64,000 nucleotides of DNA from Gordonia terrae (lineage in GTDB: Bacteria; Actinomycetota; Actinomycetes; Mycobacteriales; Mycobacteriaceae): NCBI RefSeq assembly GCF_001698225.1, contig NZ_CP016594.1, forward strand, positions 4,216,001 to 4,280,000. Direction: 5' to 3'. The notes under the pieces are model-generated. The model had not been told where the DNA came from. It was given only the letters and a program-made list of their open reading frames with translations, and did no database searches. Shown here piece after piece: positions 6,108-28,994 of the stretch (position 1 is its first letter; the number at the start of each line of letters is the position of its first letter). A program made the translations under genes and the position numbers.

Positions 6108-6164
6108 GGTGGCTTCGCTTTCTGCTGCGTCGAGGACTCACCCCCGGGCTGAAGTATGCGGCGA

Positions 6165-6181
6165 GCGTACACAGTGTTCAG
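6165..6181 (-). promoter_or_regulatory. 7-3-7 palindromic operator (type I), aldehyde dehydrogenase promoter
   Basis: GCGTACA-CAG-TGTTCAG. On the minus strand the downstream half carries TACGCT, a TANNNT -10-like hexamer. It is one of eight related sites confined to 6.1-29.0 kb. Confidence 0.6.
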
Positions 6182-6230
6182 ACGTGATGTCAATCACTTG
6201 CGGTGCCTTGTGGGGCGCTCGTCCCACCGA

Positions 6231-6247
6231 CCATACATCTTGTATGG
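6231..6247 (+). promoter_or_regulatory. 7-3-7 palindromic operator (type I), crotonase promoter
   Basis: CCATACA-TCT-TGTATGG is a perfect inverted repeat ending 27 bp before the crotonase ATG at 6275. With the site at 6165 it gives each arm of this divergent region its own operator. Confidence 0.65.
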
Positions 6248-6274
6248 AGGCGGCGTCTGCCCTATCGTGAGCTC

Positions 6275-7072
6275 ATGATCGACTGGACCGTCACCGCACA
6301 CACCGAGACGCTCGAAACCGCGGACGGCGACGGGGTCCGCCGCCTGATGCTGTCGCGCCCCGCCGCGCTCAACGCTTTCGACGAGGCGCTCCAGAGCGAC
6401 CTCCTGGACGCGGTCGCCGCCGCCGCGACCGACGACACCGTGCGATGCGTTCTTCTCGCCGGTCGAGGCCGGGCCTTCTGTGCCGGAGCGGATCTCGCGC
6501 TCGACGGGGTCGGCCCGGATGTGCGGCTGGCACCGCGGACCGAGCGCGAACTCACGCAGTTCTACAACCCGATCGTGCGCGGGCTGCGCGAGATGCGAAA
6601 GCCGGTCGTGGCCGCGGTGAACGGGGCTGCGGTGGGCGTCGGTTGCGCCGTCGCCCTCGCGGGCGACCACGTCGTCGGAGCGAGGTCGGCGTCGTTCGCA
6701 CTCGCGTTCTCACGAGTGGGGCTCACACTCGACGGCGGCGCCTCGCTTCTCGTCGGGGCGCGCGTGGGATTCGGTCGTGCGTCGCGGATGGCCCTGCTGG
6801 CCGAACGGGTCGATGCCGACACCGCGTTCTCCTGGGGGCTGATCGACGCGGTGGTCGACGATGCGGATCTCACCGACCACGTGGAGTCCCTCGCCGGAAA
6901 GCTCGCCGCCGGACCCACCGAGGCCTATGCCGCGACCAAACGCAGCCTGAATGCCGCACTGCTCCATCGCCTCGAGGATGCCTTCGACGTCGAGGTCGCG
7001 GGTCAGACCGCCCTCGTCGACAGCCCCGGCTTCCGAACCGCGATCACCCGCTTCAGCGGGTCGAAGGGCTGA
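6275..7072 (+). CDS. Enoyl-CoA hydratase/isomerase family protein (PaaG-like active site)
   Basis: A 265-residue crotonase-fold protein. The frame is open upstream to 6203, but that would run through the operator at 6231. The ATG at 6275 (MIDWTVTAHT) fits a transcript starting just after the operator. The oxyanion-hole segments RAFCAGADL and NGAAVGVGCAVALAGD are present. Classical crotonases have Glu in 'GLPE'; here the segment reads FSRVGLTLDGGAS, with an Asp as in PaaG-type ring/double-bond isomerases. It is therefore more likely an isomerase or lyase than a simple hydratase. It converges on the tandem-TetR gene with a 13-bp gap. Confidence 0.85.
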   Translation: MIDWTVTAHTETLETADGDGVRRLMLSRPAALNAFDEALQSDLLDAVAAAATDDTVRCVLLAGRGRAFCAGADLALDGVGPDVRLAPRTERELTQFYNPIVRGLREMRKPVVAAVNGAAVGVGCAVALAGDHVVGARSASFALAFSRVGLTLDGGASLLVGARVGFGRASRMALLAERVDADTAFSWGLIDAVVDDADLTDHVESLAGKLAAGPTEAYAATKRSLNAALLHRLEDAFDVEVAGQTALVDSPGFRTAITRFSGSKG

Positions 7073-7085
7073 AAACCGCTGCCTC

Positions 7086-8381
7086 TCACCGACTTCCGTA
7101 GATCGCGGCGTACATGAATCTCGCCACCATGTCGGTGACCGCGTCGATGTCGTCCAGGTGCGTCTCACCGGCGAGCGATCCTGCGATCGTACGCTCGATG
7201 GTCCACAGCAGCGTGGCCGTGTATTCGCTGGCCGGTGGCCCGGCCGGTGCCAGACCTCGTGCCCGATCGGCGACGATGATCGATTCCAGAGTCGTCTCCA
7301 TGGCGTTCATGGCGGCGAGGTACTCGGCTCGCAGTTCCGGCAGGCGTGGCCACTCGTGCACGGCGTTCTTGATCACGGCGCCGGCATGTCCGTCGAGATG
7401 AAGCCACTGTCCGACCTGCGCGAGCAAGACCGATGGGTCCTGCCGGTCGACGTCGGCGACCGCGGTCAGCGCGGCGACGATGTCGGCTGCCGCCTGCCGG
7501 AACAGAACGACGAAAGCGTCTTCTTTGCTCCGGAAGTAGAAGTAGAAGGACGCGCGGGACGTGTTCGACTGCTTCAGGATCTTCGCCACGGACAACTCGG
7601 CCAGCGTCTCGGTGAGCAGTAGTTCGCGCATGGCCTGGAGGATGTTCTGCGCCGTCTCCGTCTCCACCGCGGGATTGTCGATCGCGGGGAGCAACTCCCG
7701 CTTTGCGTCGGCGGCATCGCCCGACTTCTTGCGTCGGCCCTTCGGCACCGTCCGGCCGCCGTAGATGGCCGCTTCGTTGATGGCACTCAGCGACGTGGTG
7801 ACACTCGCCGCCGCGGGAAGCCGATCGTCGAGCCCCCGCGTGCTGACGTAGAAGGCCCGTTCGGAACCACCGACCAGCATCGCGGCCAGCATCTTCGCGG
7901 GAGCGCCGTCCGGAGCGCGGCCCTCGGCACGCTCGAACGTGATCTGCTCGGCGACGGCCGCGACGAACTGCTCGAACATCCGCTGCCAGGCCGCGGCGAC
8001 CGCGGGCTTGCTGTGCATGTGCTCGATGACCGCGCAGATGACCGCCCCATGTCGCGACCACATGTCGAGCGTGTGCTCGAGACTCGAGCCCATGCGCCGT
8101 GCCCGATCACGTCCCGGATCGGTGGACCACGGCGCATCAGCGGCGTAGGACTCGTCGAACACTCGTCCCAGAAGCGCCACCAGGACGTCGTACTTGTTGG
8201 CAAAGTAGTGGTAGAAGTTGGCCCGGGAAAGGCCGGCCGTCTCCAGGATCTGAGCAACGGTCAGATCCTGAAGAGATGTCGACGTGAGCAGTTCCTCGGT
8301 CGCCCGGAACACCGCGAGTTCGGCAGGGGAACTCCCGTCGTAGTCACGGGGGCGCCGCCGCACGAAAGAACTCGAAGCCAT
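7086..8381 (-). CDS. Tandem TetR-family regulator (two TetR modules in one chain), copy 1
   Basis: A 431-residue regulator, twice the usual TetR length. The first TetR DNA-binding domain is at about residues 22-72 (recognition helix TAGLSRANFYHYF, 48-60), followed by its ligand domain (ALICAVIEHMHS region). A basic linker (PKGRRKKSGD, about 213-222) leads to a second DNA-binding domain at about 243-292 (SNTSRASFYFYF, 272-283) and its ligand domain ending AAIYGSR. One chain could thus act as an intramolecular pseudo-dimer. I start it at the ATG of 8381 because an upstream ATG (8399) would put the 7-3-7 operator inside the gene. The operator lies 7 bp before this ATG with a TATGAT -10-like hexamer, suggesting a leaderless, self-regulated transcript. 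A close paralogue lies at 23810. Confidence 0.88.
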   Translation of the reverse strand: MASSSFVRRRPRDYDGSSPAELAVFRATEELLTSTSLQDLTVAQILETAGLSRANFYHYFANKYDVLVALLGRVFDESYAADAPWSTDPGRDRARRMGSSLEHTLDMWSRHGAVICAVIEHMHSKPAVAAAWQRMFEQFVAAVAEQITFERAEGRAPDGAPAKMLAAMLVGGSERAFYVSTRGLDDRLPAAASVTTSLSAINEAAIYGGRTVPKGRRKKSGDAADAKRELLPAIDNPAVETETAQNILQAMRELLLTETLAELSVAKILKQSNTSRASFYFYFRSKEDAFVVLFRQAAADIVAALTAVADVDRQDPSVLLAQVGQWLHLDGHAGAVIKNAVHEWPRLPELRAEYLAAMNAMETTLESIIVADRARGLAPAGPPASEYTATLLWTIERTIAGSLAGETHLDDIDAVTDMVARFMYAAIYGSR

Positions 8382-8388
8382 AACGGCA

Positions 8389-8405
8389 TCATACTTCATG
8401 TCCGG
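8389..8405 (-). promoter_or_regulatory. 7-3-7 operator (type I) at the tandem-TetR gene
   Basis: TCATACT-TCA-TGTCCGG, the most divergent of the eight sites. It lies immediately before the regulator's start codon, as expected for autoregulation. The minus strand reads TATGAT, then 6 nt, then ATG. The stretch TGTCCGGACA (8399-8408) adds a second short palindrome. Confidence 0.5.
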
Positions 8406-8429
8406 ACACAACGTCTGCCCGGTTCGAGG

Positions 8430-9254
8430 TCACGCACCGCGCGAGCGCGCCGCACTCACCCCGCGAAGCAGCGCCGCGTCGAAGTCGTCCGGACACTCCA
8501 GCATCGGGTAGTGGCCGACGTCGAACTCGACGAGCGTGCTGTTCAGGCGCTCGCGCACCCATCGGGCACCGCGAACCGACAGCGCCGGGTCCGCGGTACC
8601 GATGATCTGGGTCACGGGTACGGCGAGACCCTCGAGCAAGTGCGTCTGTTCGGTGCACATCAATGTGCGCAGTGCGGCGCGGCCGGCCCAACTCGGCGTC
8701 TGCAGCGAGATACGGTGCAGCCAGTCCAGAATGTGCGGGTCGGGCGCGCCACCCTTGAACGGATCACCGACGGCACGCCGTCGCAGAGATACCCGGTCCG
8801 CGTGCTCCGCGGCGAGGAGATTGTCCAGAGGCCCCTCGGGGGGCACCCCGAACGGAAAATCCTCGAACCGTGCCGCCGCAACGCCGTTGGTGGCGACCAA
8901 CACGAGAGCCCCTGCGAGATCGGGCCGTTCGCGTGCCAGGCGGAGGGCGACCATCCCGCCCAGCGACCAGCCCACGATGGCGGCCGAGCCCAGGCCACGC
9001 TGCTCGATGACCTCGAGCGCATCATGCCGCAGGGAGTCGATGTCGTAACCGTCCAGCGGCGCATCCGAGTGCCCGTGCCCTCGGAGATCCATGGCGACGA
9101 CCCGATGACCGCTCTCGGCCAACACCCGTATCTGCCGATCCCACACCTCTCCGCTGAGACTCCAGCCATGGATCAGCAAGACGCCCGGACCGTCTCCGAC
9201 GTCTCGCACCGAGAGCCGGACACCGTCCCGCGTGTGCACGAGGTGCCGCGTCAT
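8430..9254 (-). CDS. Alpha/beta-fold hydrolase
   Basis: A 274-residue alpha/beta hydrolase with the HGWSLSG oxyanion segment and the nucleophile Ser97 in GWSLGG. The Asp in IIGTADPALS and the His in VGHYPMLE complete the triad. The fold would suit ester, lactone or C-C bond hydrolysis. Its start overlaps the nitroreductase stop as ATGA (9251-9254), so the two are co-translated. It may hydrolyse the ester made by the Baeyer-Villiger monooxygenase at 15170; this is inferred only from shared regulation. The downstream gene is the tandem TetR, 48 bp away with its own operator in the gap. Confidence 0.88.
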   Translation of the reverse strand: MTRHLVHTRDGVRLSVRDVGDGPGVLLIHGWSLSGEVWDRQIRVLAESGHRVVAMDLRGHGHSDAPLDGYDIDSLRHDALEVIEQRGLGSAAIVGWSLGGMVALRLARERPDLAGALVLVATNGVAAARFEDFPFGVPPEGPLDNLLAAEHADRVSLRRRAVGDPFKGGAPDPHILDWLHRISLQTPSWAGRAALRTLMCTEQTHLLEGLAVPVTQIIGTADPALSVRGARWVRERLNSTLVEFDVGHYPMLECPDDFDAALLRGVSAARSRGA

Positions 9255-9991
9255 GAGACGGCATCCCGATGGAAGGTCGCGACCTCCGCGACCGACTGCC
9301 TGCTGGTGCGATACGCGTTGACCGGCGCGTCCCCGTCGGGGTAGCCGAACGAGATACCCACGACCACTCGCCGTTCGGACTTCAACCCGAGATACTCCCG
9401 GATCACCGGCGACTGCGTCGCCAGTGCCGCCTGCGGGACGGTCGCGATCCCGATCTCATGGGCCGCCAGGATGAAGTTGCTGATGAACAAGCCACAGTCG
9501 ACCGCTCCGTAGGGACCCAGCGCAGCCTCGGTCGTCACGATCGCCACGTGCGGCGCTCCGAAGAAGTCGAAGTTGCGCAGCATCTGTCGGCCCGAACCGG
9601 CCCGATCGGACTTCTCGATACCGAGGCTTGCATAGAGCTGCAGACCACTCTCGCGACGACGCTCCTGGTAGACGCCGTCATACGCGGCCGGGAACTCGAT
9701 GTCGGGATTCTGCGCCGGCCCGTCCGCGATCGCGGCCCGCAAGGCGTCGCGCAGACCCTCGGCGGCACCCCCACTCAGCACGTCGACGTGCCACGGCTGC
9801 GTGTTGCACCACGAGGGAGTCAACCGGGCCACATCGAGCACTCGCTCGATCTCGGCCGGCGGCACCTCACGAGGGAGGAACTCGCGGCAACTCCACCGGG
9901 ATTCCAGCAGCTCCCGCAAGGTCCGGGGCGGCAGCGATTCCGGAAGCGACGCCGCCGATGGTTTCGTCGATTCCTGGGACAGCGGTGACAT
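9251..9991 (-). CDS. Nitroreductase-family flavoprotein
   Basis: A 246-residue FMN-dependent nitroreductase-fold protein, usually a homodimeric NAD(P)H oxidoreductase acting on nitro compounds, quinones or enones. The family's RWSCREF-type N-terminal FMN motif is present (RELLESRWSCREFLPREV). So are VLDVARLTPSWCNTQPWHVDV and the C-terminal VVGISFGYPDGDAPVN. I start it at the ATG of 9991 (MSPLSQEST) with GGAG 5 nt upstream; the open extension to 10063 is Arg-rich and unlikely. It is the first gene of the leftward nitroreductase-hydrolase(-TetR) unit, driven from the operator region at 10085. Confidence 0.9.
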   Translation of the reverse strand: MSPLSQESTKPSAASLPESLPPRTLRELLESRWSCREFLPREVPPAEIERVLDVARLTPSWCNTQPWHVDVLSGGAAEGLRDALRAAIADGPAQNPDIEFPAAYDGVYQERRRESGLQLYASLGIEKSDRAGSGRQMLRNFDFFGAPHVAIVTTEAALGPYGAVDCGLFISNFILAAHEIGIATVPQAALATQSPVIREYLGLKSERRVVVGISFGYPDGDAPVNAYRTSRQSVAEVATFHRDAVS

Positions 9992-10084
9992 CGATACTCC
10001 TCGGTCATTGGGGACGGGCCGACGCGTGGAACGCGGCTGGCCGCGAGCGCCTCGCGTCGGCATACAGGCGGCCAGACAATCAGT

Positions 10085-10101
10085 GTAGACATAGTGTTCA
10101 G
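10085..10101. promoter_or_regulatory. 7-3-7 operator (type I) between nitroreductase and DUF2236 oxygenase
   Basis: GTAGACA-TAG-TGTTCAG lies in the 180-bp divergent region. One site appears to serve both directions. It lies 93 bp from the nitroreductase ATG and 70 bp from the oxygenase ATG. Confidence 0.55.
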
Positions 10102-10171
10102 TTGGGTCTACCCTGCGTTGTAACGACGATCACATGCGGTCGGCGTACCGATCACTCACCTAGGAGGCGCG

Positions 10172-11494
10172 ATGACCATCACCGAGCCACACACGCAGCC
10201 GACGAGTTTCCGCGGCGATCTCGACGTTCCGCCGGGACTCCCGCGCGGAATCGATCTGGGACGGATTGCGAACAAGGACAAAGCGATCGCGATGTACGGT
10301 CGCGACCTGGTCGAGAAGCTGACCGACCACGCCCTGCTCGCCGACGACTACGCCTACGCGGCGATGCTCGACTTCAAGGACAAATCCAACAATTCGACGT
10401 GGCGCACCTTCGACCAGGCCCTCGATCACGGAATCGACGCGATCGACGACCCCAGCCCCGGACTGATCGCGCTGTTCGACCAGCTCGACCACATCCCCGA
10501 CTGGGTCGATTTCGACCAGCTCTACCGCGGTGCGGTCGCTTTCTGGCGGGCCGGCCCGATCGTCCCGCCCGTCCTCGCCTGGGGCGCGATCGCCGGGGGC
10601 TTCTCCATGTACAGCGCGACCCGCCCGGTCCTGTTCAGCGGTCGGCTCCGCGAGCAGGACAAGGTGGGGACCCGGCTCATCGAGAGCTTCCGGTATGTGG
10701 TCGCCGCGTACACCCCCGGCGGGATGGCGCGTTTCGAGGAGGGCTTCCGTCTCACCGCGAAGGTCCGCATGATCCACGCCGCGGTTCGCCACAGCCTCGG
10801 GCGATCCGACCACTGGGACTGGGCCGGCTGGGGCATCCCCATCAACAACTTCGACAGCATGGTCACCCAGGCCGGCCAGTTCGGGGTGAAGTTCACCGAT
10901 GCGGTCCAGTCCTCGGGAATTCGTTTCAGCGACCGTGAACTCGAGGACATCTTCGCCCTGAGCCGTTACGTGGGATACGTGATCGGCGTTCCCGAGGACA
11001 TCCTGCACACGGATTACGAGGACGCTCGTCGCAAGACCGATCTGCACACGCTGGTCGAACTACCGCCGGACGAGCTCTGCCACGACGTCGTCCACTCGAT
11101 CATCGAGTACAGCGTCGAGAATCCACCCGGCGACGTCGAGGTGCTACCGGGACCGGTGGCCAAGTTCATGACTAACGAACGTCGACTCAAGCTCGCCTAT
11201 GGGTTGCTGCACTCGTGGATCCCACCGCACGTCATGGATGCTCTGGGCGTCGAGAAGACCGGATGGCGGCACATCCTGCCGACGATCAGCCCGCTCGTCA
11301 CCCTTGCCGATCGAGTCGGACGGGTGTTGCCACACGACGACGAGAAGGCCGCGTTCACCATGCTTCGCCAATTCAACGACGCGATCAAACTCCCCGACGG
11401 CGCGAACAAGGAGATGGCCGTGGCCAACCCCGACGAGGTCCACGCGGACATCGCCGCGAACAAGGGCGGCATGCCGGTGGTCGCGAAGAAGTGA
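10172..11494 (+). CDS. Oxygenase MpaB/DUF2236 family protein (latex-clearing-protein superfamily), copy 1
   Basis: A 440-residue protein of the DUF2236 superfamily. The family includes fungal MpaB, which cleaves a farnesyl double bond, and the rubber-cleaving haem protein Lcp. It opens with GLPRGIDLGRI (residues 22-32). The conserved Arg/His-rich segment is FRLTAKVRMIHAAVRH (about 192-207), where a haem-ligand His could lie. There is no signal peptide, so it is probably cytoplasmic. The ATG at 10172 has a perfect AGGAGG 4 nt upstream. It overlaps the racemase gene as GTGA (11491-11494), so the two act together. A paralogue of nearly the same length is at 21516. The reaction is inferred from the family, not shown by the sequence. 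Confidence 0.85.
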   Translation: MTITEPHTQPTSFRGDLDVPPGLPRGIDLGRIANKDKAIAMYGRDLVEKLTDHALLADDYAYAAMLDFKDKSNNSTWRTFDQALDHGIDAIDDPSPGLIALFDQLDHIPDWVDFDQLYRGAVAFWRAGPIVPPVLAWGAIAGGFSMYSATRPVLFSGRLREQDKVGTRLIESFRYVVAAYTPGGMARFEEGFRLTAKVRMIHAAVRHSLGRSDHWDWAGWGIPINNFDSMVTQAGQFGVKFTDAVQSSGIRFSDRELEDIFALSRYVGYVIGVPEDILHTDYEDARRKTDLHTLVELPPDELCHDVVHSIIEYSVENPPGDVEVLPGPVAKFMTNERRLKLAYGLLHSWIPPHVMDALGVEKTGWRHILPTISPLVTLADRVGRVLPHDDEKAAFTMLRQFNDAIKLPDGANKEMAVANPDEVHADIAANKGGMPVVAKK

Positions 11495-12651
11495 GCGTCG
11501 AGTCGACAACCCCTCCCCTGGCGGGCACCCGGATCATCGAACTCGCCGGCATCGGGCCCGGCCCCTTCGCCGCGATGATGCTGGCGGACATGGGTGCCGA
11601 GGTCATCACCGTCGACCGACCCGGGGGCAACCCCTGGGCGGTCGGCGGTCACGGCATCCTGTTCCGCAGCCGGCGGCATGTCGCCGTGAATCTCAAGTCC
11701 GAGGCTGGTGCAGCAGTGGTTCGACGTCTGTGCGCCGATGCCGACGGTTTGATCGAGACGTTTCGCCCCGGTGTGGCCGAACGCCTGGGGGTCGGGCCGG
11801 CGGACTGCCGGCACCACAACCCGAATCTCGTCTACGGCCGCATGACCGGCTGGGGCCAGACCGGTCCGATGGCGTCGCTGCCCGGCCATGACATCAACTA
11901 CATCGCACTCACCGGCGCCCTTCATCAGATCGGACGGAAGGGTGGTCCACCGGTTCCGCCCCTGAACCTCGTCGGCGACTTCGGGGGCGGCGGCACCTTT
12001 CTCGCGTTCGGGATGCTGGCGGGCATCCTGTCCGCCCGCGCCGGCCACGGCGGCCGGGTCGTCGACGCGGCGATGATCGACGGCGCCTCGGCCCTGATGG
12101 CGATGTTCCATTCGTACCGGGCCGAGGGCGACTTCGTCGAGGAACGTGGCGCCAACCTGCTCGACACCGGCGCCTTCTTCTACGACGTCTACGAGACCCG
12201 CGACGGACAGTGGGTGAGCATCGGCGCCATCGAGAATCAGTTCTGGACGGAGCTCTGCGATGTCTTGGAACTGCCCGATGCGATGCGGCACGACCATCTC
12301 GATCCGAAGCGATGGGACGAGTACCGCATCATTCTCGAGAAGCGGGTCGCCGAATACGACCGGGCCGAACTCGACGCGCTGTTCGACGGCCGAAACACTT
12401 GCTACGCACCGGTTCTGAGGATGTCGGAGGCAGTGGAGCACCCGCACAATCGAGCCCGGAACACGTTCGTGACGGTCGACGACGTGGTGCAACCGGCTCC
12501 GGCCCCTCGCTTCGACGGCCATCCGCCCACGGCTCCCCGTCCGCGCCGCGCGCCGGGCGCCGACACTGTCGAGGTGCTCGGTGAGACCGGCTTCTCCCCG
12601 ACCGAGATCGAGGCCCTGCTCGCCGATGGCGTGATCGACTCGACCCCATGA
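11491..12651 (+). CDS. Alpha-methylacyl-CoA racemase-like CaiB/BaiF family protein
   Basis: A 386-residue family III CoA-transferase-fold protein of the racemase branch. Mycobacterial MCR uses His126 and Asp156. Here His133 (PGHDINYIALTGALH) and Asp163 (NLVGDFGGGG) have the same 30-residue spacing. The typical TGAFFYDVYETRDGQWVSIGAIE follows. Such enzymes swap the configuration at C2 of 2-methyl-branched acyl-CoAs so that beta-oxidation can go on, as needed for isoprenoid chains. The GTG start at 11491 overlaps the oxygenase stop; the longer open frame upstream is the shadow of the oxygenase gene. It ends in a strong bidirectional hairpin. Confidence 0.9.
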   Translation: MSVESTTPPLAGTRIIELAGIGPGPFAAMMLADMGAEVITVDRPGGNPWAVGGHGILFRSRRHVAVNLKSEAGAAVVRRLCADADGLIETFRPGVAERLGVGPADCRHHNPNLVYGRMTGWGQTGPMASLPGHDINYIALTGALHQIGRKGGPPVPPLNLVGDFGGGGTFLAFGMLAGILSARAGHGGRVVDAAMIDGASALMAMFHSYRAEGDFVEERGANLLDTGAFFYDVYETRDGQWVSIGAIENQFWTELCDVLELPDAMRHDHLDPKRWDEYRIILEKRVAEYDRAELDALFDGRNTCYAPVLRMSEAVEHPHNRARNTFVTVDDVVQPAPAPRFDGHPPTAPRPRRAPGADTVEVLGETGFSPTEIEALLADGVIDSTP

Positions 12652-12654
12652 CCT

Positions 12655-12695: not shown

Positions 12696-12725
12696 ATTCA
12701 CCATCACCTCAGCAAGACCCCCGGT

Positions 12726-13865: not shown

Positions 13866-13888
13866 GGTGTTGTGTTCTCGGCAACCCC

Positions 13889-15064: not shown

Positions 15065-15144
15065 CTGTCTGTCCTGTCTGTCGATCGATGTGAAAGAGGA
15101 GGCCGTGCACGCAGCCGTCGGCCCGAATGTGATTGACGCCACGT

Positions 15145-15161
15145 CTGAACACATTGTATGG
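15145..15161. promoter_or_regulatory. 7-3-7 operator (type I) between acyl-CoA dehydrogenase and BVMO
   Basis: CTGAACA-CAT-TGTATGG. To the right TATGGT is followed by 7 nt and the monooxygenase ATG. To the left the minus strand reads TACAAT. Both are TANNNT -10-like hexamers inside the half-sites. Confidence 0.6.
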
Positions 15162-15169
15162 TCTCGTGT

Positions 15170-17194: not shown

Positions 17195-17241
17195 GACCTC
17201 TCGACCTCCCGTCCCTCCGCACCGCAATCGAGGCAGAAACG

Positions 17242-19086: not shown

Positions 19087-19114
19087 TCACAGCGGATCAA
19101 CTCCGGAGCAACCC

Positions 19115-19444: not shown

Positions 19445-19484
19445 CCGGTTCACTACCGCCGTTCGCGTCACGTCCTCGTTCGTC

Positions 19485-21226: not shown

Positions 21227-21253
21227 ACCGGGCGGGTTCCGACCGACTGCGGG

Positions 21254-21515: not shown

Positions 21516-22835
21516 CTAACTCGCCACGCGCGCAGACGCCTTCGGCACCTTGCCCTTGTTCGCGGCAATGTCCTTGGTCAGCGTGTCCGGGTTCGCGACC
21601 TCTTCGGACTTGCCACCCTCCGGCGTTGCGATCGCGGAATTGAACTGCCGCAACGTCTTGAAAGCCTTGGCCTCGTCATCGTGCGGCAGTTTACGTGCCA
21701 CGCGATCAAAGGCGCTGACCAGTGGCCGAATGGTCGGCAGCGCGAAGCGCCACGGGGTGCGTTCGACGTCGAGCATCTCGCTCACGTAGTCCGGCTGCCA
21801 GTTTCGGATCAGTGCCCACGCGAGATGGCGTCGCCGCTCGGTGGTCATGAAGGCGGCAACCGGTCCCGGAAGCAGTTCGACATCACCCGGCGGCTTCTCG
21901 GTGCTGTACTCGATGATCGTCTTGACCACATCGCGACAGAGGTCGTCGGCCGGCAATTCGATGAGCTTGTGGAAGTTGACCTTCATCCGGGCGTCGTCGG
22001 GGTTCGTGTGGAGCACCTCTTCCGGAACGCCGATCACCCAGCCCACGTACCGGCAGAGCGCGAAGATGTCCTCTTCCTCGCGGTCGCTGATGCTGATCCC
22101 CGACGCACGGACGCCGTCGACGAACTGCGTACCGAACTGTCCCGCTTGGGTGTTCATCGAATCGAGGTTGCTGATGGGCAGACCCCAGCTCGGCCAGTCC
22201 CAATGCGGGGAATGACTGAGCGTGTGTCGCACCGCGGCATGGATCATGCGGACCTTCGCAGTGAGACGGAAGCCGTCCTGATCGCGGCGCATGCCGCCGG
22301 GGGTGTGCGCCGCAACGACGTATCGGAAGCTCTCGGTGAGCCGCCCGCCCACGGCCGACTCGTCCTTGAGGCGACCACTGAACAACACCGGCCGTGTCGA
22401 GCTGTACATCGAGAAGCCCGCTCCGATGGACGAATACGTCAGCACCATGCCGGCAACCGAGCCCACTCGCCAGTATGCGACGGCACCCCGGTACAGCTGG
22501 TCGAAGTCCACCCAGTCCGGAATGTGGTCGAGCTGTTCGAACAGTCCGACGAGTCCGTCGGAGGGATCGTCGAGCGAATCGATCCCGTGATCGAGGGCCT
22601 GCTCGAACATCTTCCAGGACGCGTTCTTCGACTTGTCCTTGAAGTCCAGGAACGCTCGGTAGGCATGATCGTCGCCGAGGAGAGCGTGGTCGGTCATGCG
22701 CTCCACGTAGTCGCGTCCGTACCTCATGATTGCTTCGCGCCGATTGTTGATCCGGCCGAGATCGATACCACGAGGCAACCCCTCGGGAACGTCGAGCGAA
22801 CCTTCCCTCGTCTGCGGAATCAGTTGAGCGGTCAC
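21516..22835 (-). CDS. Oxygenase MpaB/DUF2236 family protein, copy 2
   Basis: A 439-residue paralogue of the protein at 10172. It shares GLPRGIDLGRI, QALDHGIDS, DQLDHIPDWVDFDQLYRGAVA, GFRLTAKVRMIHAAVRH, LPHDDE..AF..LRQFN and the IAANKG C-terminal stretch. I start it at the GTG of 22835 (product reading MTAQLIPQTREGS) with AAGGAG about 10 nt upstream. This matches the length of copy 1; the open frame to 22958 would run into the operator. Two copies with separate promoters suggest different substrates or positions of attack. A ferredoxin gene follows. The enzymatic role is inferred from MpaB and Lcp, both of which cleave isoprenoid C=C bonds. Confidence 0.85.
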   Translation of the reverse strand: MTAQLIPQTREGSLDVPEGLPRGIDLGRINNRREAIMRYGRDYVERMTDHALLGDDHAYRAFLDFKDKSKNASWKMFEQALDHGIDSLDDPSDGLVGLFEQLDHIPDWVDFDQLYRGAVAYWRVGSVAGMVLTYSSIGAGFSMYSSTRPVLFSGRLKDESAVGGRLTESFRYVVAAHTPGGMRRDQDGFRLTAKVRMIHAAVRHTLSHSPHWDWPSWGLPISNLDSMNTQAGQFGTQFVDGVRASGISISDREEEDIFALCRYVGWVIGVPEEVLHTNPDDARMKVNFHKLIELPADDLCRDVVKTIIEYSTEKPPGDVELLPGPVAAFMTTERRRHLAWALIRNWQPDYVSEMLDVERTPWRFALPTIRPLVSAFDRVARKLPHDDEAKAFKTLRQFNSAIATPEGGKSEEVANPDTLTKDIAANKGKVPKASARVAS

Positions 22836-22950
22836 GAGTCTTCTCCTTGTCGTCGGTGAATCGGGCTGCCGACTCCTCCGGGCTGCCGCGTCGGTTGTGA
22901 TGGTCGGCTGCCAGCGACGGTATTTGTGCTCCACAACACAGTCAACGTGT

Positions 22951-22967
22951 CCGAACATACTGTATGG
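22951..22967. promoter_or_regulatory. 7-3-7 operator (type I) between DUF2236 copy 2 and SDR
   Basis: CCGAACA-TAC-TGTATGG. It serves two divergent transcripts. The right half holds TATGGT 24 bp before the SDR ATG. The minus strand holds TATGTT. Confidence 0.6.
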
Positions 22968-22996
22968 TCGGTTGTACAGAATCGATGAGGAGTTCC

Positions 22997-23806
22997 ATGA
23001 CGCAGAATTCGCCCTACCATTTGTTCGACGTCGCCGGTGCCCGGATCTTGATCACCGGTGGGACCAGCGGGATCGGAGTGATGATCGCCGAAGGTTTCGC
23101 CGCAGCCGGTGCCGACGTCGTCGTGTCGTCACGCAAACAGGCCGGAGTCGACGCCGCGGTGGAGCGGTTGTCGACCTCCGGGCGCGTCACCGGAATCGTC
23201 GGCGATGTCTCGACCCCGGAGTCGGCACGAACCCTGGCTGCCGAGGTCCTCGCACGCGGCGAGCGACTCGACGTGGTGGTGAACAATGCCGGTGTGACGT
23301 GGGGTGCCCCCCTTGAAGAATTCCCGGATGCCGGGTGGGACAAGGTGATGCACACCAACCTCGAAGGCGTTTTCCACCTCACCGTCGCCTTGCTACCCGG
23401 ACTGCGTGCTGCCGCACGTGAGGCCGGACGCGCCTCGGTCATCAACATCGGTTCGACCGACGGCATCAACGTGCCGGAGATGGACAGTTTCAGCTATGGG
23501 GCGAGCAAGGCCGGACTCCACCATTTGACAAGGCATCTCGCGAAGAAGCTCGCATCTGAATCGATCACCGTGAACGCCATCGCGCCGGGTCCGTTCGAGA
23601 GCCGGATGATGCGGTTCGTGACAGAGAATCCCGACGCACTCGAGCGGGTCGTCGGCGGGATCCCACTGGGGCGTCTCGGAGAGCCTGACGACATTGCCGC
23701 GCTGAGCATCTTCCTCGCCAGTGCTGCCGGAAAGTACATGACCGGGAACGTGATCCCCCTCGACGGGGGCATAGTCGGTTGTGGCGGTTCGGCGAAGCTG
23801 GGCTGA
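22997..23806 (+). CDS. Short-chain dehydrogenase/reductase (SDR)
   Basis: A 269-residue classical SDR: TGGTSGIG cofactor loop (near residues 17-24), NNAGVTWG and the YGASKAG active-site Tyr/Lys. The C-terminus IPLDGGIVGCGGSAKLG is family-like. It would oxidise a secondary alcohol or reduce a ketone with NAD(P)H. The start is the ATG at 22997 with GAGGAG 4-5 nt upstream, in preference to the in-frame ATG at 22985. It is first of a rightward unit with the tandem TetR (3 bp further on) and the MDR oxidoreductase. Confidence 0.92.
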   Translation: MTQNSPYHLFDVAGARILITGGTSGIGVMIAEGFAAAGADVVVSSRKQAGVDAAVERLSTSGRVTGIVGDVSTPESARTLAAEVLARGERLDVVVNNAGVTWGAPLEEFPDAGWDKVMHTNLEGVFHLTVALLPGLRAAAREAGRASVINIGSTDGINVPEMDSFSYGASKAGLHHLTRHLAKKLASESITVNAIAPGPFESRMMRFVTENPDALERVVGGIPLGRLGEPDDIAALSIFLASAAGKYMTGNVIPLDGGIVGCGGSAKLG

Positions 23807-23809
23807 GCG

Positions 23810-25135
23810 GTGCGGGTCGCTCGCGGGTCGGCGCACCGTCGTCGAGAGCCGCGGCCCTCCGACGCCACCGTTGCCGCCTTCTTCGCTGCAACGGAGGAGC
23901 TGTTGGTGCACAAGTCGTTCGAAGAAGTCACCATCGCCGACATCATCTCGGGCACGCGGCATTCCCGATCCGCCTTCTATCATCACTTCGCCGGGAAGTT
24001 CGACGTCCTGGTCGCCCTCGCCGATGTGGTGCTGGCCGAGTCCTACGGGGGGCCGCAACTCTGGGATACGACACCGGGGCGCGACAGGTCGTACGGAATG
24101 CAGGCGAGCATCACACCAACCCTCGAGATGTGGTCGTCACACGGCGGAGTGATCGGCGCGGTCGTCGAGCACATGCACTCGAACCCCGACATCGAGGCCG
24201 TGTGGCGTCCGACATTCGACCGATTCGTCGCAGGAGTCGCCGAACAGATCCGTCACGAGCGCGACTCCGGTCGTGCTCCGGACGGCGCGCGCCCGGAGAT
24301 GATCGCGACCGTACTCGTATGCGGCATCGAACGCGTGATGTATGTCTGCACACGGGAACTCGATCCGCATCTCCCCGCCCTGGCGTCCGCGGTCGGCGCG
24401 GTGGACTGGCTCACACGGTCCGTCCTGCGGCCGGTACCGAATTCGGTACCGGCACCGTCCGCCAGAACACTGTCATCAGCGACACAAGCCCGTCCGCACG
24501 GCGACGGGCCTGGCGGCGCACACACACAGATCGAGCACTCCGGGGTCGATCCGAGATCCGATACGACGTCGACGGCCATCCTGGACTCGCTCCGCGACCT
24601 ACTACTCGATCTCCCACTGGACAAGGTGAGCGTCGCCCGAATCGTTCGGCGCGCCGGTGTGTCTCGGTCGACGTTCTACTTCTACTTCGACAACAAGAAC
24701 GCGGTGTTCGCCGAGCTCTACCGTGAGGTCGCAGCGTCGACCGTCCACCGACTCCAGTCGCTCGACACCATCGACCGGGCCGACCGGGCCGCCGTCGGCA
24801 CAGTGTTGCGGGAGTGGCTCCGGATCGACGCGCGGACCACCTCGGTGATGAGGAGCGCCCTACTCGAATGGCCCCGACGGCCCGAGCTCCGCGAAGTCTA
24901 CCGGGCCGGCATCGCTCAGATGGCGGACTACCTCGGGCGCGTCATCACCGCCGATCGGCGCTCGGGGATCGCCATCCCCGGTCCGCCGCCGGGAGAACTC
25001 TCCGCCGTGGTCCTGTGGACAATCGAGAGATCGATCGCCGGCGCGCTGGCCGGAGACGACAATCTGACCGACTTGCACGAGGTCACCCACTTCCTCACGG
25101 AGTTGTTGACCACCGCCATATACGGAAGTCCCTGA
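23810..25135 (+). CDS. Tandem TetR-family regulator (two TetR modules in one chain), copy 2
   Basis: A 441-residue paralogue of the regulator at 7086. The first DNA-binding domain is at about residues 21-72 (RHSRSAFYHHF, 50-60), with a first ligand domain containing VVEHMHSNPDIEAVW. A Pro/Ser/His-rich linker (about 205-250) leads to the second DNA-binding domain at 255-305 (RAGVSRSTFYFYF, 281-293) and the second ligand domain ending TAIYGSP. The GTG start at 23810 lies 3 bp after the SDR stop, so it is co-transcribed with that gene. It has no operator of its own, unlike copy 1. A long perfect DNA palindrome lies in its linker coding region (24431-24452). Confidence 0.88.
   Translation: MRVARGSAHRRREPRPSDATVAAFFAATEELLVHKSFEEVTIADIISGTRHSRSAFYHHFAGKFDVLVALADVVLAESYGGPQLWDTTPGRDRSYGMQASITPTLEMWSSHGGVIGAVVEHMHSNPDIEAVWRPTFDRFVAGVAEQIRHERDSGRAPDGARPEMIATVLVCGIERVMYVCTRELDPHLPALASAVGAVDWLTRSVLRPVPNSVPAPSARTLSSATQARPHGDGPGGAHTQIEHSGVDPRSDTTSTAILDSLRDLLLDLPLDKVSVARIVRRAGVSRSTFYFYFDNKNAVFAELYREVAASTVHRLQSLDTIDRADRAAVGTVLREWLRIDARTTSVMRSALLEWPRRPELREVYRAGIAQMADYLGRVITADRRSGIAIPGPPPGELSAVVLWTIERSIAGALAGDDNLTDLHEVTHFLTELLTTAIYGSP
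24431..24452. repeat. Perfect 22-bp palindrome inside the tandem-TetR gene
   Basis: The sequence reads CCGGTACCGAA and then its exact reverse complement, without a spacer. It encodes the linker residues RPVPNSVP (about 208-215), so it may only reflect codon use for Pro-Val-Pro. It could also be an intragenic protein-binding site. Confidence 0.5.
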
Positions 25136-25153
25136 AAGCCAGAAAGGCTCATC

Positions 25154-26104
25154 ATGCGCGCAGTTGTCATTCCCCGTTTCGGTACGCCGGACGTGTTGGA
25201 GGTCCGCAACGTCGAGGTACGTCCAGCCGGCGAGGGCGAGGTGCGGATCGCGGTTGCGGCCACCGCGGTCAACCCGACCGACATCGCCACGCGCAGTGGG
25301 CTCGTGGCCGCCGCCTACCGGGATTTCGACCCGCCCTACATCGCGGGCATGGACGCGGCAGGTGTGATCGAGTCGGTGGGCCCCGGCTCGGCATCGGACC
25401 GCTTCGCGGTGGGCGACGAGGTCATGTCGATCGTGATGCCTCGCCGACCCGAAGGAGGCGCGCACGCCGAGCTCATCGTCGTGCCCACTGCTGCGGTCGT
25501 ACCCAAACCGTCCACACTGTCGATCGAGCAGGCAGCGATGCTGCCCATGAACGGGTTGACCGCTCTGGAAGCCCTGAGCGTCCTGGACCTGAGACCTGGT
25601 GCCACGCTGGCGATCACCGGTGGATCGGGGTTTCTCGCCGCGTTCGTGATGACCCTCGCCCGGCGCAGGGGGATCCACGTCATCGCCGATGGTCGACCCG
25701 ACGAGTGGGACACGATCCGGAAACACGGTGCCGCGGAGGTCGTGGCGCGTGGACCGGGTGTCGAGGAACGTATCCGTTCGGCCGCGGGTGGCGGCGTCGA
25801 TGCCGTTCTCGACACCGCACTGATCGGTTCCTCGCTGTACCCCTGCATCGTCGACGGTGGAGTACTCGCCTGCGTGCGGACATTCGACGGCGTCCCACCG
25901 GAGCGCGGAATCCTCGTCCGCGAGGTATGGGTGCGCGAACGCCTGCTGGACACCGACGGTCTCACCGAGCTGGCCACCCTTGCCGATGAGGGGTTGTTCG
26001 ACTTCCTGATCGCCACAGGTAGATTCGCGCCGGAGCAGGCCGCCGACGCGCACCGGATGATCGAGGCGGGCGGAGTACGGGGGCGTCCGCTCATCCTCTT
26101 CTGA
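25154..26104 (+). CDS. Zinc-free MDR alcohol dehydrogenase/quinone oxidoreductase-like protein
   Basis: A 316-residue medium-chain dehydrogenase/reductase of the quinone-oxidoreductase type. The N-terminal GroES-like domain contains TAVNPTDIATRSG and IAGMDAAGVIESVGPG. The nucleotide fold carries ITGGSGFLAAFVM in place of the usual GGSGGVG, and no zinc-ligand cysteines are present. It probably reduces an enone or quinone with NADPH. The ATG at 25154 has AGAAAGG upstream and lies 18 bp after the tandem-TetR stop, third in the SDR-TetR-MDR unit. A hairpin overlaps its stop codon. Confidence 0.88.
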   Translation: MRAVVIPRFGTPDVLEVRNVEVRPAGEGEVRIAVAATAVNPTDIATRSGLVAAAYRDFDPPYIAGMDAAGVIESVGPGSASDRFAVGDEVMSIVMPRRPEGGAHAELIVVPTAAVVPKPSTLSIEQAAMLPMNGLTALEALSVLDLRPGATLAITGGSGFLAAFVMTLARRRGIHVIADGRPDEWDTIRKHGAAEVVARGPGVEERIRSAAGGGVDAVLDTALIGSSLYPCIVDGGVLACVRTFDGVPPERGILVREVWVRERLLDTDGLTELATLADEGLFDFLIATGRFAPEQAADAHRMIEAGGVRGRPLILF

Positions 26105-26116
26105 CGAGCGGACGCC
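26082..26116. terminator. Terminator hairpin overlapping the MDR stop codon
   Basis: GGCGTCCGCTC pairs perfectly with GAGCGGACGCC (26106-26116) around a 13-nt loop, between two convergent genes. It may act in both directions. Confidence 0.65.
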
Positions 26117-26141
26117 TCCGCGCCGATGACCGCTCCCTGTG

Positions 26142-26906
26142 CTACATCGGGGACGAGGTGAATCCTCCGTCGAGGACGTAGGTGTGACCGGTGACCCAGT
26201 CGCCCGCGTCCTCGGCCAGGTGGGTCACCGCACGGGCCACATCATCGGGCCGGCCCAGTCGACCCTGGTGCTGGGTGAAGAACTCGTGCGCATCGACGCC
26301 ACCCGACGCGGCCTGGAACGCCTCCATCAGGTTGTCCGACAGCGCTGTCTCGACAAATGCCGGTGCTACACAGTTGACCCGGATGTTCGCGGGCCGCAGT
26401 TCCACTGCCGCGGTCCGGGTGAGATTGATGACAGCCGCCTTTGTGGCGGCGTAACCGCCGATCATCGGCATCCCGTTGGTGCCTGCCGACGATGCGGTGT
26501 TGACGATGGCGCCACCGCCCCGGGCGGTCAAATGCGGTACAGCCGCCTTGATTCCGTGGAAGACGCCCTTCAGGTTGACCGCGATCATGCGATCGAAGTC
26601 GTCCGCGGACAATTCGGTCACCGGAGCCAGGATCGCGATCCCGGCGTTGTTCACCAGCACGTCCAGGCCGCCGAACTCGTCGACGGCCCTACCCACGGCC
26701 GATTCGACCTGGTCCGGGTCGGTGACGTCGACCGCGACCCCGATCGCCGACCCACCGATATCCGCCGCCACCCGATCGGCGGCTCCGCCATCGAGGTCGG
26801 CCACCACCACATGCGCGCCTTGTGCGGCGAAGCGGCGGGCAACGGCAGCCCCGATCCCGCCGCCGGCTCCGGTCACGACCACCGATTTGTTCTCGAACGT
26901 TGACAT
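26142..26906 (-). CDS. SDR family oxidoreductase
   Basis: A 254-residue classical SDR with TGAGGGIG, NNAGIAILAP, the SSAGTNGMPMIGGYAATKAA active-site stretch (Tyr/Lys) and a DGGFTSS C-terminus. It would interconvert a hydroxyl and a keto group, for example a hydroxyacyl-CoA or an alcohol from oxygenation. The start is the ATG at 26906 with AGGAGAAGG upstream; a GTG at 26912 would lie too close to that site. It is transcribed alone leftward and converges on the MDR gene. The operator is 31 bp upstream of the ATG. Confidence 0.92.
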   Translation of the reverse strand: MSTFENKSVVVTGAGGGIGAAVARRFAAQGAHVVVADLDGGAADRVAADIGGSAIGVAVDVTDPDQVESAVGRAVDEFGGLDVLVNNAGIAILAPVTELSADDFDRMIAVNLKGVFHGIKAAVPHLTARGGGAIVNTASSAGTNGMPMIGGYAATKAAVINLTRTAAVELRPANIRVNCVAPAFVETALSDNLMEAFQAASGGVDAHEFFTQHQGRLGRPDDVARAVTHLAEDAGDWVTGHTYVLDGGFTSSPM

Positions 26907-27257
26907 ATCCACCTTCTCCTAGTCCGACCATCTCGACCGTACACACTGTCCGAACGACATGTACAGGTTCTGGGCTGAAGAAGGCCACCGCCCCGTGTCG
27001 ACCGCTGGGTCTTCGAATTCGTCTGAGCGGCAGCGTCATTCGACCTCCGGGCAAACACCCGGTGACACCTGTTCGCGTCAGACCGCCTCGGTGGATCGAG
27101 CGCTTGGGGTCAGAACCCTGAACGCCGTCCACGGCCGCGGGCAGAACCCCAGGAAGTCGAACTTCGTCTTATCGCCGTGTGGTCTGGCGGGCGGATCCGC
27201 AACACTGACAGGGGCGGGGCCCCGGTCGACATGCCAGCATCCCGGACAACCGACAGA
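26907..27257. other. Intergenic region upstream of the SDR gene
   Basis: A 351-bp gap with no credible gene. It contains the SDR ribosome site, the operator at 26937-26953 and the 3' flank of the thioesterase gene. An open plus-strand frame (26959-27345) is Ser/Thr/Gly-rich, has no ribosome site and runs into the thioesterase antisense, so I do not call it. Confidence 0.6.
26937..26953 (-). promoter_or_regulatory. 7-3-7 operator (type I), SDR promoter
   Basis: CCGTACA-CAC-TGTCCGA. The minus strand reads TGTGTACGGT, placing a TANNNT hexamer (TACGGT) in the downstream half-site. Confidence 0.55.
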
Positions 27258-27896
27258 TCAGGGTTGCCCAGGGCGCAGTACGACGAACAACCCGGTGGCC
27301 TCGGCGACCACGGTTCCGTCAGCGCGGAGACTCCCGGTGACGTAGATCTTGCGGCCCTCCGCCCGGTCGACGCATGCGGTGAACTCGAGCTCCGTGTCGA
27401 CCGGCGTGATGTGGCGGTAGTCGACGTGCAAGTTCGCGGTGCGACACCGCGGGCGTTCGGCTCCGGCGAGCCGGCCGAAGATCTCGTCGAAGACGAGCGG
27501 AATCACCCCGCCGTGCGCCGCGCCGTTTCGACCGAGATGGAAGCGACCGAGGCGAAGCGTGCCCTCGACGCGATCGGTCGTCTGCTTCCGGTAGCTCAGA
27601 ACCGGCACCAAGGCCTGCGATCTGCCGGGAGAGTCCATCTGCGTACCCGCCAGCTGATGCGCCTCGTCGACGGCGAAGTCATCGAGCCGACCCGCGACGG
27701 AGCGCAGTTCGGCGGCCATCGCCAACGAGACCGCCTCCGTCGGCCGGGCAGCTGCCACCGAATTCTGCAACCGACGAACGCTGTCGATCAAGCGATCGAA
27801 GGCCTCCGCAGTGGCGGGATCCGATGTCGTCAGCGGCTCCCAGTCCCCGGCCTCCTCGCCATACCCGGGTTCAATCACCTGGCCGTCCAACGGCAT
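27258..27896 (-). CDS. PaaI-type hotdog thioesterase, copy 1
   Basis: A 212-residue protein with a C-terminal hotdog domain (about 105-205). GRNGAAHGGVIPLVFDEIFGRLAG is the catalytic-helix region of PaaI/4HBT-like acyl-CoA thioesterases, and HVDYRHITPVDTELEF follows. The roughly 100-residue N-terminal part is helical and family-specific. It would release CoA from stalled or end-product thioesters. The ATG at 27896 lies 6 bp after the kinase stop, so both are on one transcript. A paralogue of similar length and design is at 62809, paired there with a crotonase and a CaiB protein. Confidence 0.88.
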   Translation of the reverse strand: MPLDGQVIEPGYGEEAGDWEPLTTSDPATAEAFDRLIDSVRRLQNSVAAARPTEAVSLAMAAELRSVAGRLDDFAVDEAHQLAGTQMDSPGRSQALVPVLSYRKQTTDRVEGTLRLGRFHLGRNGAAHGGVIPLVFDEIFGRLAGAERPRCRTANLHVDYRHITPVDTELEFTACVDRAEGRKIYVTGSLRADGTVVAEATGLFVVLRPGQP

Positions 27897-27902
27897 CCGC
27901 GC

Positions 27903-28970
27903 TCATGCCAGCAGCATACCGATCGGGTCGTGGTCTTCGAGGGCGGCGCCGTAGCGGTGGGCCATCGCCTCGACCACCTCCGACGGCTGCATCACGGTCG
28001 GAACACACATCCACGCGAACCCGTGCAGGGTGTGCAGCCGGTATTCGTACCAGGCGTCTTCGTCGTCGAGGTGCGGACCGCCATGACCGGCGAGCGCGTC
28101 GATGTAGTGTCGCAACAACTCTCGCTCTCGGGTCCGTCGGTCTTCGATGGTCAGCGCCGACCCGAGGAAGTACGACACGTCATGAGCCCACGGCGCGAGG
28201 CATGCCGTCTGCCAGTCGAGGAAGGCCGGCGCACTTCCGGGTACCCGATACAACTGAGCGAAGTGCGCATCACCGTGATTGATCGTGTGGGTGGCGGCGT
28301 CGTCGTGTTCCCACAGCTTCGCGAAACCCGCGCGCACCCGGGCATCGTCCCGAAGCCCAGCCGACAGATCCGGAACCTCGGCACGCTCGATCAGCGGATG
28401 AAACACCTCGGGACTCAGCATCACCGTGAACGCATCACGAGCGGCCTTGGCGCCCACCGGGAGCCAGGTGCGCTCGCCCCTGCCACTCCCCCACAGCGCC
28501 GCGTGCCACTTCGCCTGGACTTCCAGCGTCGTCGCGATGTCATCGACCGACCACAGATCGGTCGCCTGGCCGAACTCGGCGCCTCGTGCCGTCAGGTCCT
28601 CCATGATGATGACGCCTTGATCGCGCTCGGTGGCCGAGTAGTAACTCGCCGGCACCTCCGCAGCGAACCCCGGTGCCAGATCACGGTAGAAGTGGCCCTC
28701 GAGCTCGTAGGCCGGCCCCAAGCCGAACGCACGACTCCGTTCGTCGAAACCTCCCTTGATGCACAGCTGGGCAGGGATGTCCCGGTCATTCACTGAATAG
28801 GTCAGCGTGGCGAATACTTTGGTCGCCGATCCCCAGATGATTCGAGTGGTGTCGACCTCTTCGACGACGACCTGTCCATCCTTGGTCGTCAATGCGGCGC
28901 CGACCCACTCCGGGGTCAACTCATCGACCGAGAACGGAAGTGTGGTCGTACGGGGTTCTGCCTGAGTCAT
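27903..28970 (-). CDS. APH-fold phosphotransferase (ecdysteroid-kinase/ACAD10-kinase-like)
   Basis: A 355-residue kinase-fold protein of the aminoglycoside-phosphotransferase superfamily. The catalytic loop is HGDAHFAQLY (the usual Asn replaced by Gln-Leu). The metal-binding segment is PAFLDWQTACLAPWAHDVSYFLG. The N-lobe includes AQLCIKGGF with a candidate ATP-binding Lys. The start is the ATG at 28970, 7 bp after the 7-3-7 operator; TATGGT, then 6 nt, then ATG implies a leaderless mRNA. Related kinases in LvaA and ACAD10/11 phosphorylate 4-hydroxyacyl-CoA, which fits a neighbourhood with three acyl-CoA dehydrogenases. The substrate here is unproven. Confidence 0.82.
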   Translation of the reverse strand: MTQAEPRTTTLPFSVDELTPEWVGAALTTKDGQVVVEEVDTTRIIWGSATKVFATLTYSVNDRDIPAQLCIKGGFDERSRAFGLGPAYELEGHFYRDLAPGFAAEVPASYYSATERDQGVIIMEDLTARGAEFGQATDLWSVDDIATTLEVQAKWHAALWGSGRGERTWLPVGAKAARDAFTVMLSPEVFHPLIERAEVPDLSAGLRDDARVRAGFAKLWEHDDAATHTINHGDAHFAQLYRVPGSAPAFLDWQTACLAPWAHDVSYFLGSALTIEDRRTRERELLRHYIDALAGHGGPHLDDEDAWYEYRLHTLHGFAWMCVPTVMQPSEVVEAMAHRYGAALEDHDPIGMLLA

Positions 28971-28977
28971 GCAGGAA

Positions 28978-28994
28978 CCATACATAGTGTATGG
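28978..28994 (-). promoter_or_regulatory. 7-3-7 operator (type I), kinase promoter
   Basis: CCATACA-TAG-TGTATGG, a perfect inverted repeat. The minus strand reads TATGGT 6 nt before the kinase ATG. It is the rightmost of the eight type I sites. Confidence 0.65.

Follow-up and report, generated by a model that had tools for sequence, protein, structure and literature searches.

A two-dyad operator at the promoters of a catabolic gene block in Gordonia terrae and its probable reader, a fused double-TetR protein

Results

Eight related sites are concentrated in one 64-kb window

We analyzed a 64-kb stretch of the Gordonia terrae genome (5.70 Mb, one contig; positions 4216001-4280000, hereafter the window), in which eight related sites lie at the promoters of a catabolic gene block that also encodes two fused double-TetR proteins, dTetR1 (7086-8381) and dTetR2. 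The existence of the eight sites was confirmed; they exceed chance expectation by far and are conserved. Judging from sequence comparison, they are very probably the operators of dTetR1, acting as a repressor. We infer that dTetR1 binds them with two chains per operator, represses the adjoining promoters and is released by a ligand from the pathway that it controls.

The sites had been predicted as 17-bp palindromes starting at positions 6165, 6231, 8389, 10085, 15145, 22951, 26937, and 28978 of the window, and all of them were found at these positions. The TGT triplet is invariant as proposed (8/8), and its partner ACA occurs in seven sites, site 8389 having ACT. Two sites described as perfect dyads, 6231 and 28978, are indeed perfect 7-3-7 palindromes. 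The proposed consensus CCRWACANNNTGTWYGG was stated too tightly: it is matched exactly by only three of the eight (6231, 22951, and 28978), and mismatches amount to one at 15145, two at 6165 and 26937, three at 8389, and, counted by eye, four at 10085.

Pattern scans covered the whole 5.70 Mb, and matrix scans sampled approximately 440 kb of background. Exact matches to CCRWACANNNTGTWYGG occur at three places in the genome, all inside the window; with up to one mismatch there are nine places, four of them in the window, and the same pattern read backwards gives four matches per strand. The extended pattern of four half-sites described below, with up to one mismatch, occurs at 16 places, i.e., the eight window sites and eight scattered ones (backward control: 10 matches). 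In twelve regions of about 3 kb around pattern places outside the window, scores did not exceed 9.6 bits, compared to 25.1-42.6 bits for the window sites, using a matrix of 75 unique Gordonia sites that includes the window sites. A second matrix of 63 unique sites from other genera scored all eight between 25.1 and 41.0 bits, the best background value in ~440 kb being 13.0; this matrix is not wholly independent, as its sites were retrieved with the Gordonia matrix. Each of its window matches of at least 9 bits falls on one of the eight operators. Likewise, a 32-bp matrix built from the eight sites revealed no further place of at least 8 bits in the window, in line with the claim that none exist elsewhere in it. 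When each site was scored with a matrix of the other seven, values ranged from 12.1 to 36.1 bits (background maximum 13.5 in 434 kb); site 26937 (12.1 bits) fell below this maximum and 10085 (14.0 bits) was barely above it, whereas the matrix from other genera separated all eight. The expected concentration of matches in the window was thus seen in pattern scans, in leave-one-out scores, and with the matrix from other genera, and a chance or coding-DNA origin of the sites was ruled out by the pattern scans together with the matrix scores against background. All eight lie in promoter gaps, as originally proposed, once gene starts are set by homology and leaderless geometry (ATG at 8381 for dTetR1, 15170 for BVMO, 6275 for ECHa, and 28970 for EcKL). 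The open reading frames (ORFs) of MPABb and ACADb extend into sites 22951 and 15145, and a gap location there assumes a later start.

The operator probably comprises two overlapping dyads

Alignment of the flanks in both orientations showed that each site is accompanied on one side by an additional conserved block. The purely symmetric 17-bp operator was replaced by an extended operator of ~30 bp with four half-sites, ACA-N3-TGT-N4-ACr-N3-yGT, which form two overlapping dyads with centres 13 bp apart. The 17-bp dyad is thus only part of the operator, since a second, overlapping dyad is conserved too, and the extended motif gives sites 10085, 15145, and 22951 a minus-strand orientation. Dyads and promoter geometry were analyzed for 172 sites of at least 13 bits (141 unique). 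The fourth half-site lies inside a TTGAC in 37 of the 141 (class I); the remaining 104 lack that -35 (class II). The operators and their promoters are as follows, genes being described in the last section of the Results.

6164..6195, operator 1, class I: ALDH promoter, minus strand; -35 TTGACA at 6188-6193, N18, -10 TACGCT at 6164-6169
6230..6261, operator 2, class II, perfect dyad at 6231-6247: over a putative -35 TTGTAT of ECHa, in the same gap as operator 1 (ALDH/ECHa)
6263-6268, -10 TATCGT of the ECHa promoter: ATG at 6275, apparently leaderless
8388..8419, operator 3, class II: over the -10 TATGAT of the dTetR1 gene; ATG at 8381, six nt downstream
10071..10102, operator 4, class II: between NitroR (minus) and MPABa (plus)
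10086-10091, putative -35 TAGACA of the MPABa promoter: under operator 4, followed by N17 and -10 TACCCT at 10109-10114
15131..15162, operator 5, class I: BVMO promoter, plus strand; GATTGACG, N18, -10 TATGGT at 15157-15162, N7, ATG at 15170; apparently leaderless
22937..22968, operator 6: between MPABb (minus) and SDRa-dTetR2-ADHz (plus); -10 TATGGT at 22963-22968
26936..26967, operator 7: upstream of SDRb (minus); -10 TACGGT at 26936-26941
28977..29008, operator 8, class I, perfect dyad at 28978-28994: EcKL promoter, minus strand; TTGACA, N18, -10 TATGGT, N6, ATG at 28970; apparently leaderless

It is rather unlikely that the central 17-bp dyad alone is the operator and that the second dyad is a by-product of the -35 element and its spacing. 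In the 37 class I sites the fourth half-site belongs to TTGAC, the matrix that picked the sites included the second dyad and inflated its apparent conservation, and the sites of the double-TetR repressor Mce3R span ~25 bp per chain (PMC11667970, in excerpt). Against this, the second dyad retains AC in 77% and GT in 86% of the 104 class II sites, and the NitroR/MPABa site keeps it with no TANNNT at the matching -10 place. Complementarity in class II is 0.51 at centre 22, compared to 0.57 at centre 9 and 0.47 at centre 15.5; none of the remaining centres tested exceeded 0.38.

Operators overlap predicted core promoter elements

The class I module reads GATTGAC[AG]-N18-TATGGT/TATGCT (also TACGCT), its -10 consisting of an operator half-site plus one base. 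An overlap of the operator with the -10 of leaderless promoters had been predicted, and it was seen at BVMO, EcKL, and dTetR1, where the spacing to the ATG is conserved within two bases. Among Gordonia promoters with a site, the ATG stands 7 nt past the -10 at all 15 BVMO genes, 6-8 nt at 14/14 dTetR1 genes, and 6-7 nt at 7/7 EcKL genes. This short spacing would fit leaderless mRNAs, which make up nearly one quarter of mycobacterial transcripts (PMC4633059, in excerpt). ALDH and SDRa appear to be leadered, the SDRa start (ATG 22997) being preceded by GAGGAG. At 6231 and 10085 the overlap with the -10 does not hold; there, a putative -35 is covered instead.

With operators placed on the -10 or in the spacer that separates it from the -35, a bound protein should block RNA polymerase. 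It is therefore highly improbable that the reader of these sites is an activator or has a dual role. Furthermore, Mce3R represses (PMC11667970, in excerpt; PMC2277422), and so do most of the TetR-family proteins studied (PMC3511530, in excerpt).

Operator and double TetR occur in the same genomes

The ORF of dTetR1 has 441 residues, of which 431 remain from the ATG at 8381, and the dTetR2 ORF also has 441. Both proteins contain two TetR_N and two EthR_C (PF21313) stretches each (EthR_C 5.9e-27 and 1.4e-25), and all 18 aligned double-TetR sequences span both units. Of 59 Gordonia genomes, 16 have a dTetR1 orthologue, the genome studied here among them. The closest named genomes are of Gordonia, with 97% identity for dTetR1 in G. 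lacunae and 96% for a G. terrae protein. The class I pattern with up to three mismatches also occurs in 16/59 (backward control 0/59), and these are exactly the 16 with the double TetR. In a sample of the order, operator and double TetR were found in the same two of 298 genomes (the second being G084), but this survey scored five candidates per genome, so that regulators could have been missed.

As most sites adjoin the regulator gene, unlinked cases were examined, and two observations separate regulator from linkage. EcKL occurs in seven of the 59 Gordonia genomes, all with dTetR1, and in G021, where it lies 2.6 Mb away, a 39.8-bit site covers its start. Conversely, yrbE/mce orthologues in genomes without dTetR (G012, G067 twice, G027, G013, and G001; 60-89% identity in YrbEa) carry a site in none of six cases. 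In these cases, the presence of a site goes with the regulator and not with the gene, and linkage was rejected as the cause of the co-occurrence. The pointer of the original prediction to the tandem TetR proteins is strengthened by both the co-occurrence and the target-bearing, regulator-less genomes without site.

That another, unlinked regulator (KstR-type or other TetR) reads the sites, dTetR1 being a mere neighbour, is very unlikely. KstR and KstR2 do control actinobacterial steroid catabolism (PMC8228715, in excerpt), but their motifs given there, TNNAACGTGTTNNA and AAGCAAGNNCTTGCTT, respectively, differ by eye from ACA-N3-TGT, which disfavours KstR-type control. The shared distribution in 16/59 and 2/298 genomes, the site-free mce orthologues, and the site at dTetR1's own promoter in 14 of 16 Gordonia cases also argue against it.

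For dTetR2, which is 43-44% identical to dTetR1, a closer orthologue (79%) was found only in G073 among the 59 Gordonia genomes, and a match of 51% is present in Williamsia L106. The sites recognized by dTetR2 are probably those of dTetR1 or resemble them. A division into two regulons with look-alike operators, dTetR2 separately controlling the 21.5-29 kb block, is less likely. In its favour, the dTetR2 block has sites 22951 and 26937 on its two flanks, 22951 has no class I -35, and the two proteins share less than half of their residues. On the other hand, the EcKL class I site is also present in genomes with dTetR1 only (G026, G032, G066, G068, G021, and G030), and the recognition helices of both proteins share SRxxFYxxF.

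Sites are conserved at orthologous promoters

A gene was counted as having a site if one of at least 13 bits lay near its start, and these counts depend on where the tblastn match begins. Gordonia numbers refer to genes found in fetched stretches of the 16 genomes. The other-genus set comprises 18 loci from Williamsia, Tsukamurella, Nocardia, Mycolicibacterium, Pseudonocardia, and Nocardioides, two Williamsia genomes contributing two loci each; G084 was left out, its contig being already represented by locus L112 (Nocardia carnea).

Ten mapped neighbourhoods have a common order (ALDH, ECHa, dTetR1, ABH, NitroR, MPABa-CoAT3, ACADa-ACADb, BVMO-FadD), with insertions and losses. In Gordonia, sites were counted at ALDH (16/16), ECHa (15/15), dTetR1 (14/16), NitroR (15/15), MPABa (16/16), BVMO (15/17), ACADb (11/16), EcKL (7/7), MPABb (2/2), SDRa (2/3), SDRb (2/2), and YrbEa (3/16). 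Both BVMO misses are pieces of G019. Of the 13 YrbEa misses, 12 stand after a site-bearing ALDH in the same direction, an arrangement seen in 12 of 16 cases, and the last is a separate operon in G019 without site; separate yrbE/mce operons in G026, G080, and G032 each have their own class I site. In the other genera, sites were counted at ALDH (4/5), ECHa (2/2), NitroR (11/11), MPABa (9/9), BVMO (12/13), EcKL (5/5), and YrbEa (3/5). Footprinting thus agrees with the expectation that orthologous promoters carry sites, which they do in Gordonia, Williamsia, Nocardia, Mycolicibacterium, and Pseudonocardia. Operator 6 is also present in G073 (37.8 bits), with a 16.8-bit site in Williamsia L106, where operator 7 has a counterpart at SDRb (26.0 bits).

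Within the limits of the tests made, this genome agrees with the idea of a single catabolic block. Relatives have a dispersed regulon, with EcKL 2.6 Mb from the regulator gene in G021, as mentioned, and on another contig in G066, and with the separate yrbE/mce operons of G026, G080, and G032. L106 (Williamsia soli) has a second double TetR (52% to dTetR1) beside homologues of MPABb, SDRa, dTetR2, ADHz, SDRb, EcKL, and mce, and this counterpart of the 21.5-29 kb block carries sites.

Several points weigh against the assignment of the sites to dTetR1, in addition to the limited depth of the order-wide survey. The 16 Gordonia genomes are phylogenetically non-independent. The fourth half-site of class I coincides with the -35 TTGAC, and its conservation there is uninformative about the protein. 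The dTetR1 gene lacks a recognized site in G019 and G021, and in the other genera only 10 of 15 have a counted one. ACADb has a site in 11/16 Gordonia and 8/11 other-genus cases, and none of its own in the window; the misses in G030, G066, and G080b are probably an artefact of the tblastn start, as sites are visible at those leaderless starts. G019 (loci L022 and L183) lacks the site at dTetR1, BVMO (which directly follows MPABa there), and the separate yrbE operon, and keeps those at ALDH and MPABa; this is perhaps a partial loss of the regulon. Finally, in Nocardioides alkalitolerans (L121), no site was found within 10 kb of a double TetR with 40% identity, which may have either a different specificity or a different role.

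In relatives such as G030, G007, and G066, ACADb, which is leaderless there, has a second, near-symmetric operator at its start, with ~45 bp between it and the operator of BVMO. No counterpart was found in the window.

Gene content of the block

The genes in and around the putative regulon are listed below.

519..6107, minus: ALDH, YrbEa, YrbEb, MCEb, MCEa; probable operon from operator 1, lipid importer
6275..7072, plus: ECHa, enoyl-CoA hydratase/isomerase family
7086..8381, minus: dTetR1, fused double TetR with two TetR_N and two EthR_C, predicted regulator
8430..10063, minus: alpha/beta hydrolase (ABH) and nitroreductase-family (NitroR) genes
10172..12651, plus: MPABa (rubber-oxygenase/MpaB-like, PF09995) and CoA-transferase III
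12726..15283, minus (ORF bounds): ACADa and ACADb, two acyl-CoA dehydrogenases; true ACADb start probably near 15.06 kb
15170..19086, plus: Baeyer-Villiger-type monooxygenase (BVMO) and FadD11-like acyl-CoA ligase
21516..28970: variable second block with MPABb, SDRa, dTetR2, ADHz, SDRb, thioesterase, EcKL
23810..25135, plus: dTetR2, second double TetR

MPABb is a second rubber-oxygenase/MpaB-like protein (PF09995), EcKL is ecdysteroid-kinase-like, and the block also encodes dehydrogenases. The match of MPABa to a solved rubber oxygenase is weak (6.3e-7). The second block was not seen as a block in the ten neighbourhoods mapped first. Enzyme matches were generic, and for ten proteins none of the listed matches met the NCBIfam cut-off, so that the pathway could not be named from them. 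The CoA-transferase III family includes alpha-methylacyl-CoA racemase. Taken together, MCE import, an Lcp/MpaB-like oxygenase, ALDH, BVMO, esterase, ligase, CoA-transferase III, acyl-CoA dehydrogenases, and hydratases would suit a pathway that degrades an isoprenoid, or another lipid with methyl branches, by oxidation.

Between FadD and MPABb (19097-21435), there are short ORFs, one of which (20408-21031, plus) matches two parts of FdhF/YdeP-type molybdopterin oxidoreductases (profiles of more than 700 positions) and looks like a decayed remnant. On the other side, ECHb, ECHc, SDRc, ACADc, and FadDb (29035-35212) adjoin EcKL without operator. As orthologues of ECHb, ECHc, ACADc, and FadDb stand beside an MCE operon in G012, which has no dTetR, this set seems to form a unit of its own, and the regulon may have its right border here. 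Further downstream, 44923-45963 encodes an LLM-class F420-dependent oxidoreductase of the Rv3520c subfamily, above the NCBIfam cut-off.

Discussion

Our data suggest the following model for dTetR1. One chain with two EthR-like TetR units would fold on itself as a pseudo-dimer and read one dyad (ACA-N3-TGT) via its two related recognition helices. A second copy would read the overlapping dyad 13 bp away, so that four helix-turn-helix units meet four half-sites. The bound complex would cover the -10, or the -35 at ECHa and MPABa, and block RNA polymerase; in many cases, mRNAs from the covered promoters may have the start codon at their very 5' end. Release of the repressor by a metabolite of the pathway, possibly an acyl-CoA, would switch on the MCE importer, oxygenases, BVMO, ligase, and beta-oxidation genes together. 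With an operator over its own promoter, dTetR1 would be autoregulatory.

The best known relative in kind is Mce3R (Rv1963c) of M. tuberculosis, a double-TetR repressor of the mce3 regulon, whose structure (9b7y) is called the first of a double TFR (PMC11667970, in excerpt). Along the whole chain, the predicted fold of dTetR1 matches Mce3R best. However, the two are only 15-16% identical in structural alignments, and the halves of dTetR1 are EthR-like, with two EthR_C. Mce3R sites are 25 bp long, asymmetric, and nonpalindromic, two of them being separated by 53 bp (PMC11667970, in excerpt), whereas the operator described here is near-palindromic with overlapping dyads 13 bp apart. Candidate sites lie at the ALDH-yrbE/mce operon and over dTetR1's own -10. 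No match named Mce3R was found among the 60 of 78 sequences listed in one search or the 80 proteins of another, which are mostly nameless. Unlike EthR, the single-unit repressor of ethA in M. tuberculosis, the dTetR proteins are fusions with EthR_C domains. KstR and KstR2 are single-unit regulators. They are likewise TetR-family repressors with short motifs at many promoters, but their motifs differ (PMC8228715, in excerpt).

A literature search at title and abstract level, with subscription journals thinly covered, found no description of this operator or regulon. Double-TetR repressors were little covered in the literature searched, and Mce3R was the sole natural one among the matches. A regulon under a double-TetR repressor is a known kind of system; compared to the original prediction, the operator is larger, a candidate for the regulator can be named, and the phylogenetic range has widened. 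Only tentatively can this be extended to a double-TetR clade spanning several genera, in which the TetR dimer may have become a single chain of two related units with a palindromic target, two chains would sit on overlapping dyads 13 bp apart, and a half-site would supply the leaderless -10. Promoter and operator would then make up a module of ~35 bp, repeated nearly unchanged in different genera and at genes that are not linked, and this module would serve an as yet undescribed isoprenoid or branched-lipid regulon (MCE import, rubber-oxygenase-like cleavage, BVMO, CoA-transferase, and beta-oxidation).

A second double-TetR group with a readable, conserved operator offers a test of how a fused repressor counts half-sites. 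For G. terrae, it would assign ~20 genes, the MCE importer included, to one switch. The motif is usable for finding further pathway members in these genera, and the regulator could become an inducible tool in Gordonia or Rhodococcus.

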